From positions 1 to 20,210 of the IMG/VR virus record IMGVR_UViG_3300037459_000055: a stretch of DNA of 20,210 bases. One strand, given 5' to 3'. The first letter of the stretch is position 1. Each line of letters begins with the position of its first letter. Source of the DNA: a virus. Shown piece after piece: positions 6,347 through 11,758 of the stretch. The notes below the pieces were generated by a model. It was not told the origin of the DNA. It saw only the letters and a program-made list of their open reading frames with translations, and searched no databases. Made by a program: the position numbers and the translations under genes.

Positions 6347-6785
6347 TTTGCGTTTCCTCTGTGGGAAGGAAGTTTTTTACTAGACAGTTAAAATAACCCA
6401 TTTTCCCCATTTCCGCTAGGGGGGTCTAAGTCCTTTGATACCAACGACTTACGGGATCGGGTGCAGAAATGCCTCCCCTTACCTTACACGCAAGTTGTTG
6501 TGCCGCAACGAGTTACAGCGTCGAGCCTCCACCGTTTCAGAATATTTACCGTAAAACCCCATATTTCACCATTTATCACATTTAGTCCAGATGGTAGTTT
6601 TGGCTCCCCACCTGCATATCGGTGTGGGTGGTTCTATATATTTTTTTATTTATATACTATAATGCCACACTTCACGACCATGCTTGGATATTTGTCTGGT
6701 AGGGGTCATTTATACCACATGGGTTGCATGGGATTCATGGACTTACCGTAAAATACCGTAAAGCCCGGTCCTGCATCTTTCGTCG

Positions 6786-6856
6786 CGTCAATTATATTTG
6801 GTCGTGAAAGTATTTTCAACCTCGGCGTCAATTATACTTCGACGTCAATTATACTT
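6786..6856. repeat. Three direct repeats CGTCAATTATAYTT (iteron-like)
   Basis: Copies lie at 6786-6799 (ATATTT form), 6826-6839 and 6843-6856 (ATACTT form). The last two are 17 nt apart start to start and the first 40 nt before. Read on the minus strand each copy is AARTATAATTGACG, carrying TATAAT and TTGACG, so it could be an operator overlapping early promoters as well as an iteron. Confidence 0.7.
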
Positions 6857-6867
6857 AGCCAGGATTT

Positions 6868-6886
6868 TTCCAGATTCCAGATTCCA
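6868..6886. repeat. Short tandem repeat of TTCCAGA
   Basis: Two full copies and one partial copy of TTCCAGA follow each other directly, just after the CGTCAATTATAYTT repeats. This is a heptamer tandem of unknown role in the control region. Confidence 0.6.
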
Positions 6887-6911
6887 GCTTTTTCAAAATC
6901 CCGATTTACCC

Positions 6912-6933
6912 TTCGGTTTTTGTTCGGTTTTTG
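6912..6933. repeat. Perfect tandem repeat TTCGGTTTTTG x2
   Basis: Two identical 11-mers stand head to tail (6912-6922, 6923-6933). One turn of the helix per unit and the T5 tracts would phase intrinsic DNA bending. It lies just upstream of the GC-rich structured segment. Confidence 0.65.
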
Positions 6934-6977
6934 GATGTTGAGAAATTTCGTTCGGCTACTTGCGGAAACGACTTTCG

Positions 6978-7080
6978 GACCGTATTTTCAAGGTCAGGAT
7001 AGGATGTCGGACGGGGCCGCAAGGTCGGAGCCGAGGTAGCCTAGCCGGAGGGTCGAAGCGGATAACCCATCAGGGACCGC
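6978..7080 (+). ncRNA. GC-rich structured leader upstream of 7122-7607
   Basis: Three hairpins line up on the plus strand. GACC (6978-6981) pairs with GGTC (6992-6995). TCGG (7007-7010)/CCGA (7031-7034) encloses GGCC-GCAA-GGTC (7015-7026), capped by a GNRA-type GCAA loop. GCGG (7058-7061)/CCGC (7077-7080) encloses CCC-ATCA-GGG. The segment ends 41 nt before the ATG at 7122. It matches no riboswitch or ribozyme that I can recognise. A frame continuous with the gene runs through it from 6960, but it is Arg-rich and start-poor, so I treat it as an untranslated leader. Confidence 0.4.
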
Positions 7081-7121
7081 GCCCGAAACCAGTTTCCCAT
7101 TTCTTTAGACGGAGAAAAATC

Positions 7122-7607
7122 ATGGCTGTAAAAATCCCCAAGTTCTCTTTCCTTCCAAAGTCGTTCAAGGTCGAGCCGGATTCGGGCCTTGAAATTGTGA
7201 CCGTGGAAAGACAGTACAAAGAGACAAAGCCGAAAGACCCGAAAGACGGTTGGACGGCATCGGCTGAAAAGATCGCTTGCGATCTCATAATGCCAACGGC
7301 TAACAATGCCGGTGTTCTCGCATATGCGGCGCTCTACACAGAACACGGTCCGAAGCACGAATCCAGTGTGGACGGTCCGACGTTCATAGCCGAATGTGTG
7401 CGGGATGCAATTTCCGTAGGGTCGAGCAGGATTCTCACCCTTTCGGAAATGGACCCATCGGTCCGACTCTTGCCGCCAGTCGTTCGCGCGAAATTCGTGA
7501 ACAAAGCTGCGATGGCTGCAAAGAGGTTTGAGGTCTGGACATTGGCGAATCCGAATAAGATGCCGAATCCAGAGGAACTTGCCGCGATCTATGGCGGTGT
7601 TTCCTGA
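7122..7607 (+). CDS. Orphan protein in GC-rich island, 161 aa
   Basis: The start at 7122 follows GGAG by 7 nt; the longer in-frame start at 6960 would run through the structured leader. The protein has a basic N-terminus (MAVKIPKFSFLPKSFKVEP), a Lys/Asp/Pro-rich linker (KETKPKDPKDGWT), then a helical Ala-rich body containing IACDLIMPTANNAGVLAYAALYTEHGP and ending PNPEELAAIYGGVS. No family is recognised. Its base composition is visibly more GC-rich than that of the flanking genes. It has its own leader and a strong terminator 18 nt after the stop, so it is probably an independent moron-type gene acquired from elsewhere. Confidence 0.8.
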   Translation: MAVKIPKFSFLPKSFKVEPDSGLEIVTVERQYKETKPKDPKDGWTASAEKIACDLIMPTANNAGVLAYAALYTEHGPKHESSVDGPTFIAECVRDAISVGSSRILTLSEMDPSVRLLPPVVRAKFVNKAAMAAKRFEVWTLANPNKMPNPEELAAIYGGVS

Positions 7608-7625
7608 CCTAGCTTGAAAATTTCT

Positions 7626-7699
7626 GGATCGGTCTTTCAGATTCTATCTTCCCAATCTCAAAACGAGATAGAATCCGAAGGGCCGATCTGGATTTTTTT
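7626..7699 (+). terminator. Strong intrinsic terminator
   Basis: A long hairpin is followed by seven T. GATCGG (7627-7632) pairs with CCGATC (7683-7688), CTTTC (7634-7638) with GAAGG (7677-7681), and GATTCTATCT (7640-7649) with AGATAGAATC (7666-7675), leaving a 16-nt loop. The T tract is 7693-7699. It ends transcription of the 7122-7607 gene and would keep that transcript from running into the late genes. Confidence 0.85.
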
Positions 7700-8059
7700 C
7701 GGAATATATCCGCAGCTTATAAACATGGTTCGACCGTTTGGGATTTTGTCAAGACCCTAGCTTATTCGCAGTAATTTTGGCGGGTATGCTGTGGTCGATT
7801 TTGTCAACCCCCGCAGCTTAAGCGCAATTAGACCCCCCACCCCCCAATTTTCTGAATTGACCAAAGGGCGGATAGTGCGACAAATCGAACATAAAATTTT
7901 AAAATAATAAAAAAGAATCTAAAACAGAAATATCCAGTAGGGGCCTTGCGAAATGAGGGAGTGGGGTGTACCTTATATATAGGGGGTTTGAGGGGGACGT
8001 TTATGGGGGAGTAAACCGTAAAACCCCGTATAGTTTCTCTTTTCTTAATGGAGGACAGA
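7700..8059. promoter_or_regulatory. Non-coding region upstream of late genes
   Basis: No ORF is convincing here. It holds an imperfect direct repeat beginning GATTTTGTCAA (7742-7752 and 7797-7807), whose minus-strand reading begins TTGACAAAATC. It also holds C-runs near 7831-7846, an AT-rich segment near 7895-7920, G-runs around a TATATATA at about 7973-7982 and one ACCGTAAAACCCC copy. The late promoter probably lies between 7930 and 8030, but I see no consensus sigma-70 pair. Confidence 0.5.
7742..7830. repeat. Imperfect ~33-nt direct repeat, 55-nt period
   Basis: The two units share GATTTTGTCAA exactly and then AGCTTA plus CGCA with small differences. A further CGCAGCTTA occurs near 7711-7719. 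On the minus strand the unit starts with the -35-like TTGACA, yet no -10 stands at proper distance. The repeat could be a repressor-binding or replication site. Confidence 0.55.
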
Positions 8060-8242
8060 ATGGCTCATAAGGGAGGAGGAGGAAAAGTTGGTAGGGCTGG
8101 TGGAAAAAGACGTAAAAGAGTTAACCAATCTACAACTAGTCCTAATTCAACTATTTCCCGACTAACCCCAAAAAGAACTGCAACCGTAATTAGAGGTACT
8201 ACTGGCAGAGCTAGAAAATTATCAGGGAGGCGACGTAGCTAA
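8060..8242 (+). CDS. Very basic small protein, 60 aa
   Basis: The start at 8060 is chosen because GGAGGACAG, a strong ribosome-binding site, lies just upstream; the in-frame ATG at 8048 overlaps that site. The protein begins MAHKGGGGKVGRAGGKRRKRVNQ and ends RKLSGRRRS. It is rich in Gly, Lys, Arg, Ser and Thr, with almost no acidic residues. This suggests nucleic-acid binding or a charge-neutralising virion protein packaged with DNA. It is first in the late operon; the family is unknown. Confidence 0.75.
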   Translation: MAHKGGGGKVGRAGGKRRKRVNQSTTSPNSTISRLTPKRTATVIRGTTGRARKLSGRRRS

Positions 8243-9314: not shown

Positions 9315-9779
9315 ATGGCTAATGTTATTAAGACAGTAGTCAAAGACTTCAATCTTCCTATGTTAATGGAAGAATTGGAAGCCTCAGTAGTTCCCGCTTT
9401 TGGACTACTCATGGCTGGATTTGAAAAAACTGGTTCTGCACTTTACGAAGCCAATGCTGCTACTAAAGTTATTGGTTCATCTACAGATTCTACAGGAACT
9501 ACTGAAGATACCGCCGAACCTGGCGAATTGAGATTTGAGTTCCGCAACGCTTTAACCTCCGCACAAGATTCTGCTTTAGATTCTACTCTGGCTGGACACG
9601 TTGCTAGTAATAGAACAGATGAGCAGGTTAGAAAAGCTCAAGATGTAACTGACGCTAATCAACTTCTTGCAGATTATCCAAGTTACGATGCTATGACCGC
9701 AGCTCAAAAGAATGCGGTTAACAAAGTAATGTTAAGAGTTGTGATACGAGTTGTACTTGGTAGAGCAGCAGAAATTTAA
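9315..9779 (+). CDS. Putative structural protein, 154 aa
   Basis: The N-terminal half is helical and Ala-rich (MANVIKTVVKDFNLPMLMEELEA), then comes a Thr/Ser-rich linker (SSTDSTGTTEDTAEPG). A segment LRFEFRNALTSAQDSALDSTLAGHVAS follows, then a C-terminal unit LLADYPSYDAMTAAQKNAVNKVML. The LLADYxSxDxMTAAQK motif occurs, as far as I recall, in other phage virion-associated proteins next to fibre genes. The gene ends with a TAATG overlap into the large fibre-like gene and is probably made together with it. Confidence 0.65.
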   Translation: MANVIKTVVKDFNLPMLMEELEASVVPAFGLLMAGFEKTGSALYEANAATKVIGSSTDSTGTTEDTAEPGELRFEFRNALTSAQDSALDSTLAGHVASNRTDEQVRKAQDVTDANQLLADYPSYDAMTAAQKNAVNKVMLRVVIRVVLGRAAEI

Positions 9780-11758
9780 TGATTAGCGAAGTCAAAGCCA
9801 GCGCCAGTCTTGCTCTAACTTCCACAGCGGCTGGTGGAGTAATTCTCCCCGGAATGACATTGACCCCTGGTGCTGGGGATTATCTTGCCCTCTTCACAAT
9901 GGATGTAGAATTTGCAGATCCAGCAGGTTTTGAAGAATTGGAGGTTTTTCTTAAATTTGATGGGATTCAGAACGCTCAAACCCCTAGATTTCTAGATTCT
10001 GAAAATTCTTTGGATGGATCTAAATTTGCAATTTTGAGTAGTGGTAATACTTTTGTAACCTTTTTGGGTGGAGAAACTATAGAAGTTTTTTACACAGCTT
10101 CTGATTCAGCTGAATTTGTGGGATTTAATAGATCATTAACTCTGTTTCCAATAAATACACCTGAGCTTGCATCTGGCATTTCTACCTTCACTACAATAGC
10201 TGGAGGTGGAGAACAAAATTTTGCAGGCGTAGGTAATAATGTAGGACCTACTGGTGGTGGAGATTATTTCCTTTTATTCACAACTTCTATAGATGGAGTT
10301 GCAGATAATATTGTAGAACTTAGGGTAACAGTTGATGGAGTTCTAGTTCCTCACACAGCTAGACGATCCTCAAACGAAGGTTCTTCTCCTGACACAAAAA
10401 TGTGTCTGATGATATGTGCCAGAGTTAGTCCACTAGATAATCAAATTGTAAGAGTTGTGTGGGAAAGGGTTGCTGGCGGTGGGATTACGACCGCTTATGC
10501 AAGCCGTATGAATTTAATAAAAACAAAACCAGGGGATCTTTTTGATGCTACGTCCGTTGCTGATGATACTTCTTCTATAGCAGATGTTGATGAATTAATT
10601 GATGGAATGACTCTTTCTCCAAATTGTCCTACAGAGTATTTTGCGTTATTCTCTAGTTATGATTTCTATGGATCTATTATTCTTCGTGCAAGAACAACTT
10701 ACTTTATCACCGAAGATAATGCGCCGATGGTTGATGGCGAAAGAACTTTTGAACATGAAAATTCTATTGACAATACACCTATAGCTATATTTACAGGAGG
10801 ATTAGTTACAACTCCAGCGCCTCTTCCAATAGAATCAATTGCTGCTGATGCTGATGGGTCAGCTTGTTCTGCTTCTGCTACGGTTCACGATATTCCTGGT
10901 GCGGCTCATGGAGTAACTCTTAGTACATTACTAAATAGATATTTGTGGGTAGTAGTTTCTCAAGGTAATTCAGCCGAACCTATTACTTCTGTTATTTGGG
11001 ATCAGGGTGGAACTAATCAAGCTATGACTCTTGTTGGAACTGTCAGTAATGGTACTGATGCAAGAGTAGATGTATTTGAATTACTCAGTCCTGTTTCTGG
11101 GCAAAAACCTATTAGAGTTACAATGGCGATTGCTCAGGGAATTTCAGTTGGTGTTGAGGGTTATGCTCGTGTTAAACAAAGATCCGCTAGAAATCTAGTT
11201 ACTGCTACTGGAACTGGATCTCCTAACAGTGGACCTGTGTCAGCTAAACTTGGCGATTTAGTTTTGGATGGTGTAGCTTCAAGAGATACTGTTGGCCCTC
11301 ATTCTCCCACAGGTGGAACAAAAAGATTTGAAGCGTCTTGTAATACAGATGATGATTTAGTTTTGGGACATCATAGATCAAGTTTTGGTGGAAGTGTAAC
11401 AATGGCTTGGGGAGCTTCTGTAGATAAAGAGTGGGCTCAAGTAGCCGCTGTCATAGAACCTTTCTCTAACACTGATCCAGATATTACAGCTTTTTGGAGA
11501 GCTAATACTATTCAACTTAGAACAATGCACGAAAGAGCTTTAGTTGCAATTAGAGAACCTGCTCCCAAACAAGCTATATCAGCTACGGCAGTAGGTGTTG
11601 CATCAATGATAACAGTTTTTGGTAATATAACTTTTGTAGCTCTAAATGCAGTTGCAGTTGGACTTTCGGTACTTAGTTTTATACCTTTCATAGCAAGTCT
11701 TGGTGGAAGGATTACAGATATTGCTGGAAGATATACTAGACCTACAGATATAACATAA
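9779..11758 (+). CDS. Large modular appendage/fibre-like protein, 659 aa
   Basis: The protein is beta-rich. Three N-terminal modules share GMTLTP...DYLALFT: residues 25-125 (GMTLTPGAGDYLALFT), 150-245 (GNNVGPTGGGDYFLLFT) and 275-345 (GMTLSPNCPTEYFALFS). Residues 355-562 look like a jelly-roll or lectin-like domain (VHDIPGAAHGVT..., RYLWVVVSQG, ending WAQVAAVIEPF). Residues 600-642 are strongly hydrophobic (VGVASMITVFGNITFVAL...). It is probably a receptor-binding or surface appendage, placed unusually upstream of the terminase genes. Junctions on both sides are overlapping (TAATG). Confidence 0.75.
   Translation: MISEVKASASLALTSTAAGGVILPGMTLTPGAGDYLALFTMDVEFADPAGFEELEVFLKFDGIQNAQTPRFLDSENSLDGSKFAILSSGNTFVTFLGGETIEVFYTASDSAEFVGFNRSLTLFPINTPELASGISTFTTIAGGGEQNFAGVGNNVGPTGGGDYFLLFTTSIDGVADNIVELRVTVDGVLVPHTARRSSNEGSSPDTKMCLMICARVSPLDNQIVRVVWERVAGGGITTAYASRMNLIKTKPGDLFDATSVADDTSSIADVDELIDGMTLSPNCPTEYFALFSSYDFYGSIILRARTTYFITEDNAPMVDGERTFEHENSIDNTPIAIFTGGLVTTPAPLPIESIAADADGSACSASATVHDIPGAAHGVTLSTLLNRYLWVVVSQGNSAEPITSVIWDQGGTNQAMTLVGTVSNGTDARVDVFELLSPVSGQKPIRVTMAIAQGISVGVEGYARVKQRSARNLVTATGTGSPNSGPVSAKLGDLVLDGVASRDTVGPHSPTGGTKRFEASCNTDDDLVLGHHRSSFGGSVTMAWGASVDKEWAQVAAVIEPFSNTDPDITAFWRANTIQLRTMHERALVAIREPAPKQAISATAVGVASMITVFGNITFVALNAVAVGLSVLSFIPFIASLGGRITDIAGRYTRPTDIT

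Follow-up and report, generated by a model that had tools for sequence, protein, structure and literature searches.

Outside model phages, only few phage genes are known to have a defined structured leader RNA. In T4, the gene 32 operator, which serves autogenous control by a phage SSB, is folded in its 5' part, and the segment after it, which carries the Shine-Dalgarno (SD) sequence, is less structured (PMC535899). The put RNAs of phage HK022, which act in antitermination, are about 70 nt long and consist of two stem-loops; they are found after early promoters (PMC9378689). Finally, own control signals and a deviant GC content are two of the criteria for phage morons (PMC2920897).

In this study, we analyzed a 20.2-kb stretch of DNA (hereafter the window), which is the whole of one virus record and represents a genome fragment. 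Between its two gene arms lies a unit with a structured leader, one orphan gene and a terminator. The unit resembles morons in that one gene of deviant GC comes with a terminator of its own, the T4/RB69 gene 32 operator in its layout and its single phage gene (PMC535899), and the HK022 put sites in that a two-stem-loop RNA lies in a phage control region before a terminator (PMC9378689). Overall, the best explanation appeared to be a resident monocistronic unit with leader-controlled translation, to which we give about an even chance.

The unit between the two arms

The minus-strand arm of the window contains an SNF2 helicase gene and small genes, and the plus-strand arm is structural, with terminase, SU10-type portal and major head protein. 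The interval between the arms (6347-8047) holds a single gene (7122-7607, plus strand; hereafter the slot gene). An earlier note on this DNA had described a self-contained unit of structured leader, orphan gene and own terminator between two phage arms; gene layout and the family matches of both arms confirmed the location, and the description of the unit was supported. Its coordinates were right overall, except that its starting point, 6960, is merely the first in-frame TTG and the conserved RNA starts at 6994. A composition scan also recovered the sharp change in base composition reported there, with a GC peak of 0.546 (7001-7500) compared with about 0.42 overall.

The slot gene begins with an ATG at 7122, preceded by the SD sequence GGAG (7111-7114), and its stop codon lies at 7605-7607. 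It encodes a 161-aa orphan protein (P0001), for which no family match was found in Pfam, PHROGs, NCBIfam, PADLOC or PDB sequences, and no homolog besides that of the relative G001 (see below) was found in phage records, plasmids, sampled genome contigs or other viral contigs. Homology search thus agreed with the earlier view of an unrecognized gene, whereas a role in defence or anti-defence, also raised there, was left unsupported by the lack of any PADLOC match. Two AlphaFold2 predictions (pLDDT 44.6 and 44.7) gave no usable fold; with this pLDDT of about 44 and no family match, the protein was not recognizable as an SSB.

A terminase search led to the close relative G001 (IMGVR_UViG_3300020235_000070, 50.5 kb), the ends of which are identical over 141 bp, and its genome is therefore complete. 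It was the only close relative covering the slot position (n=1). The slot ortholog in G001 (23956-24474; 172 aa, 42% identity) has the same place and orientation, the genes flanking the slot are collinear, and shared genes are 33-89% identical, the slot gene being among the faster-diverging ones. Between the two slot genes, 53, 62 and 37% of codon positions 1, 2 and 3, respectively, are identical, which is the pattern expected of coding DNA. All three parts of the unit, leader, slot gene and terminator, have collinear counterparts in G001.

The slot gene is followed by a very strong intrinsic terminator (7617-7698, plus strand), a long hairpin and then a T run (-42.6 kcal/mol, z -6.45), in agreement with the earlier note; no shuffled sequence was equally stable. 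Its counterpart in G001 differs in sequence and is of equal strength (-46.6 kcal/mol, z -7.5). Since the terminator was kept while its sequence was rewritten, the closed unit is conserved.

Several features were also observed in the DNA on either side. A conserved non-coding block (6411-6665), 71.5% identical to G001, contains CAACGACTTAC repeats, a hairpin (CCCCACCT...GTGGGTGG) and the AT tract ATATATTTTTTTATTTATATA. Its core motif recurs in the remote phage G014, and the GC skew switches sign close to it; we regard the block as a candidate origin of replication and divergent control region. An origin-motif match in one unrelated phage was judged to be chance. Nearer to the leader, three copies of CGTCAATTATA (6786, 6826 and 6843) form a cluster (6785-6865) that is a candidate promoter or operator, the role being suggested by position; G001 has tandem copies at 23680 and 23696, and neither sequence contains further exact copies. 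Upstream in the window, a search of the plus strand revealed no sigma-70-like promoter. On the minus strand, a sigma-70-like promoter for the minus arm was observed at 6791-6819 (TTGAAA-17-TATAAT, 11/12), and the overlap of its -10 box with a CGTCAATTATA repeat suggested an operator. The motif ACCGTAAAA(C)CCCGTAT, a candidate phage promoter or operator, has three intergenic copies (6548, 6745 and 8015), the last just upstream of the structural arm; in G001, it has counterparts at position 24942 and near 23370.

At the start of the structural arm, a small ORF (8048-8242) is very basic, as is the G001 ORF in the equal position (24911-25114), and no BLAST match was detected between them. Further along this arm, ORFs of 154 and 659 aa (9315-11758) had no BLAST match in G001, which has an 803-aa repetitive protein at the position of the 659-aa ORF; the two ORFs are probably fast-evolving or swapped structural genes.

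Leader RNA and the ribosome-binding site

The leader proper aligns between the window (6994-7087) and G001 (23819-23906) with 70% of aligned columns identical, unlike most of the intergenic DNA around it, which is not conserved. Invariant blocks are UCAGGAUAGGAU, CGGGGCCGC, GAUAACCCAUC and CGCCCGAA. Folded separately, the two leaders gave the same two adjoining domains, with centroid equal to MFE, on the plus strand only; the minus-strand folds were ill-defined and unlike one another. Domain I (6994-7049, plus strand) is a long imperfect stem (UCAGGAUAGG / CCUA-CC-GA) with an invariant 5' strand, capped by a GNRA tetraloop that is GCAA in the window (7019-7022) and GAAA in G001. Its MFE and centroid structures coincide, and G001 folded alone gave the same domain. 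Domain II (7050-7084, plus strand) is composed of GGGU/GCCC, GCGG/CCGC, an invariant AUAACCC internal loop and an apical hairpin. In G001, the GCGG/CCGC stem is replaced by GUAG/CUAC, that is, by two double compensations that keep every pair, and slid registers of the partner strand gave zero compensations; the shuffle control by itself (128/500) is not significant with two sequences. The earlier description of a three-hairpin leader with a GCAA tetraloop was fair, comprising domains I and II and a hairpin that covers the SD sequence.

Further evidence for structure came from randomization. When the 26 variable G001 positions were shuffled and the invariant positions were kept fixed, only 0.4% of 2000 randomizations folded as close to the window structure, and RNAalifold on the leader pair scored z -2.1 (p 0.03) against column shuffles. 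Folding energy alone was not unusual (z -0.8), and energy z-scores, not being significant, were rejected as proof of leader structure. No Rfam family matched the leader at gathering score; weak microRNA matches below threshold were attributed to the terminator hairpin, which resembles microRNA precursors. The covariance search suggested in the earlier note, carried out with a model (R1) built on two sequences and correspondingly thin in covariation, recovered the RNA in the window and G001 only, across everything searched. Two matches to the leader pattern were judged to be chance, one in Bradyrhizobium (14 bits) and one in Desulfobacterales, which lies within a coding gene and has no model match. 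We also considered whether the leader encodes additional N-terminal residues of the slot protein, as the frame in the window is open from the TTG at 6960. This was rejected, because some of the leader indels between the two phages would shift the reading frame, their lengths not being divisible by three, and just 24 codons are open upstream of the G001 start. Judged from sequence comparison, the leader is a genuine conserved RNA that is absent from Rfam and known from two phages.

Downstream of these domains, hairpin III (7100-7117, plus strand; UUUCUUU-AGAC-GGAGAAA) includes the SD sequence in its 3' strand. It is weak, being rich in A-U and G-U pairs. The SD sequence was predicted to be paired in both phages with a mean probability above 0.9; the AGAC loop is invariant and the stem is partly rewritten. 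In G001, the SD pairing is divided between two neighbouring pyrimidine partners. Among SD-bearing genes, the SD accessibility of the slot gene ranked in the lowest 17% in the window and below all 56 others in G001.

Probable residence of the unit in the slot

The two-arm layout was also found in two remote phages, G014 (51 kb) and G021 (44 kb), each with one GC-rich gene in the slot interval, in an arrangement that is like that of the window by eye. These genes have the opposite relative orientation to the window slot gene, and no similarity was detectable between any pair of the slot proteins of G014, G021 and P0001. A helicase-guided search for further two-arm phages returned generic distant helicases only. 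When genes of at least 100 aa were ranked by GC3, the slot gene came first in each of the four two-arm phages: 0.59 in the window, 0.56 in G001, 0.63 in G014 and 0.59 in G021, compared with means of 0.31, 0.40, 0.37 and 0.40, respectively (slot z 3.1-4.6, with 4.6 in the window). The GC3 excess thus goes with the slot and is of long standing, and it speaks only weakly for a foreign origin. Its probable cause is codon selection for high expression in the slot, or else a distinct class of genes that has long resided there. Capsid-like expression as its cause was rejected, since CAI against the major capsid gene ranked the slot gene low. A sigma-70-like promoter precedes the slot gene by 58 nt in G014 and by 106 nt in G021, which suggests early expression by the host polymerase. 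Downstream of the slot gene in G021 (L037:1499-1553), we observed an RNA three-way junction (z -2.9) without a T run, in which TGTCGCG...CGCGACA encloses two hairpins.

The unit had been called moron-like in the earlier note, which implies a recently gained foreign cassette, or more generally a slot that acts as a hotspot taking in varied foreign GC-rich single-gene cassettes. Of the moron criteria (PMC2920897), the unit fits that of deviant GC, with GC3 of 0.59 compared with a mean of 0.31; as to own control signals, it has a very strong terminator, and the CGTCAATTATA repeats are the only candidate for a plus-strand promoter. The unrelated, oppositely oriented genes in the slots of G014 and G021 and the rapid divergence of the slot gene also favor such a slot. 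However, gene, leader and terminator are all kept in the only close relative that covers the place, searches of other phages, plasmids and the bacterial genomes sampled gave no homolog, and all four slots, those of the window and three other phages, have similarly elevated GC3 regardless of the protein. The window unit differs from morons on these points: unit and leader are both carried by the only relative that allows a comparison, remote slots share the GC deviation, and no outside homolog of the slot gene was detected. By the definition in PMC2920897, the unit does not qualify as a moron on two counts, its presence in the one close relative covering the place and the lack of a detected outside homolog, and we consider a hotspot of this kind improbable. 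The earlier note had itself named conservation of gene and composition in relatives as evidence against its reading, and both are conserved in G001; with this collinearity and the GC excess in four slots, a recent foreign gain was unsupported. It is very probable that the unit is resident rather than a recent import. Over longer evolutionary times, the slot may have swapped genes, as its occupant in G014 and G021 is a different gene that points the other way.

Proposed control of the slot gene

We propose that the unit belongs to a two-arm phage lineage and is flanked by the structural arm on one side and by a probable origin and control region on the other. Transcription would begin upstream of 6994 and pass through the two-domain leader and the slot gene to the very strong terminator, which would insulate the structural arm. 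The leader may set slot-gene translation: hairpin III would hide the ribosome-binding site, and a factor binding to domains I and II would alter the accessibility of this site or keep it shut. Our confidence that the leader controls translation is evenly divided. The likeliest factor would be the slot protein itself, in a negative feedback like that of T4 gp32 on gene 32. Such feedback would fit a small protein needed quickly and then capped. An autogenous operator should have a conserved structured leader with the SD sequence in or next to the bound region, and both the structure and the SD position were observed here. As in the gene 32 operator, the part bearing the SD sequence is pyrimidine-rich and less structured than the 5' part. 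Unlike the T4/RB69 operator, the window leader has no UUAAA repeats and no pseudoknot in its predicted fold, its SD sequence lies within a hairpin of its own, and its protein is not recognizably an SSB. By analogy, autogenous control in particular is possible, though we lean against it.

Other functions of the leader were weighed against translational control. It might be a 5' stabilizer or processing element that protects a short transcript or marks an RNase site, with no regulatory ligand. A structured 5' end and a strong 3' hairpin do flank the short GC-rich message, and both are conserved as structures, but such an element would require neither invariant loops and strands such as UCAGGAUAGGAU, AUAACCCAUC, CGCCCGAA and AGAC nor the covering of the SD sequence in both phages; we regard it as unlikely. 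A ligand-sensing riboswitch, with domains I and II as aptamer and hairpin III as expression platform, would account for the conserved loops, which are aptamer-like and in both phages precede a hairpin covering the SD sequence. However, with no Rfam match, two sequences only and a downstream gene that is not metabolic, this appeared very improbable.

Antitermination like that of HK022 put, in which a two-domain RNA modifies RNA polymerase and allows read-through into the structural arm, would fit the two adjoining stem domains about 500 nt ahead of a very strong terminator and a structural operon. On the other hand, the SD-covering hairpin and the tight linkage to one gene indicate translation, and the promoter-like motif at 8015 belongs to the structural arm. 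The leader in the window and G001 is 88-94 nt long, compared with about 70 nt for put, and is linked to a ribosome-binding site. The two-sequence model R1 had no match in HK022 25000-40751, the stretch expected to contain the put sites. We consider put-like antitermination quite improbable, and a weaker rival than translational control.

We tentatively suggest, and with more doubt than belief, that a new class of phage cis-regulatory RNA, made up of two folded domains and an SD-covering hairpin with an AGAC loop, controls the slot protein, and that the origin-side slot varies by lineage among equally high-GC3 genes, perhaps with a shared function in early takeover or replication control. The leader RNA has a clear boundary, an SD hairpin that could serve as a testable switch and an orphan target gene. 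The slot GC3 signature, seen in four phages, could be used to locate the same functional position in other uncultured phages even where the protein is unrecognizable.
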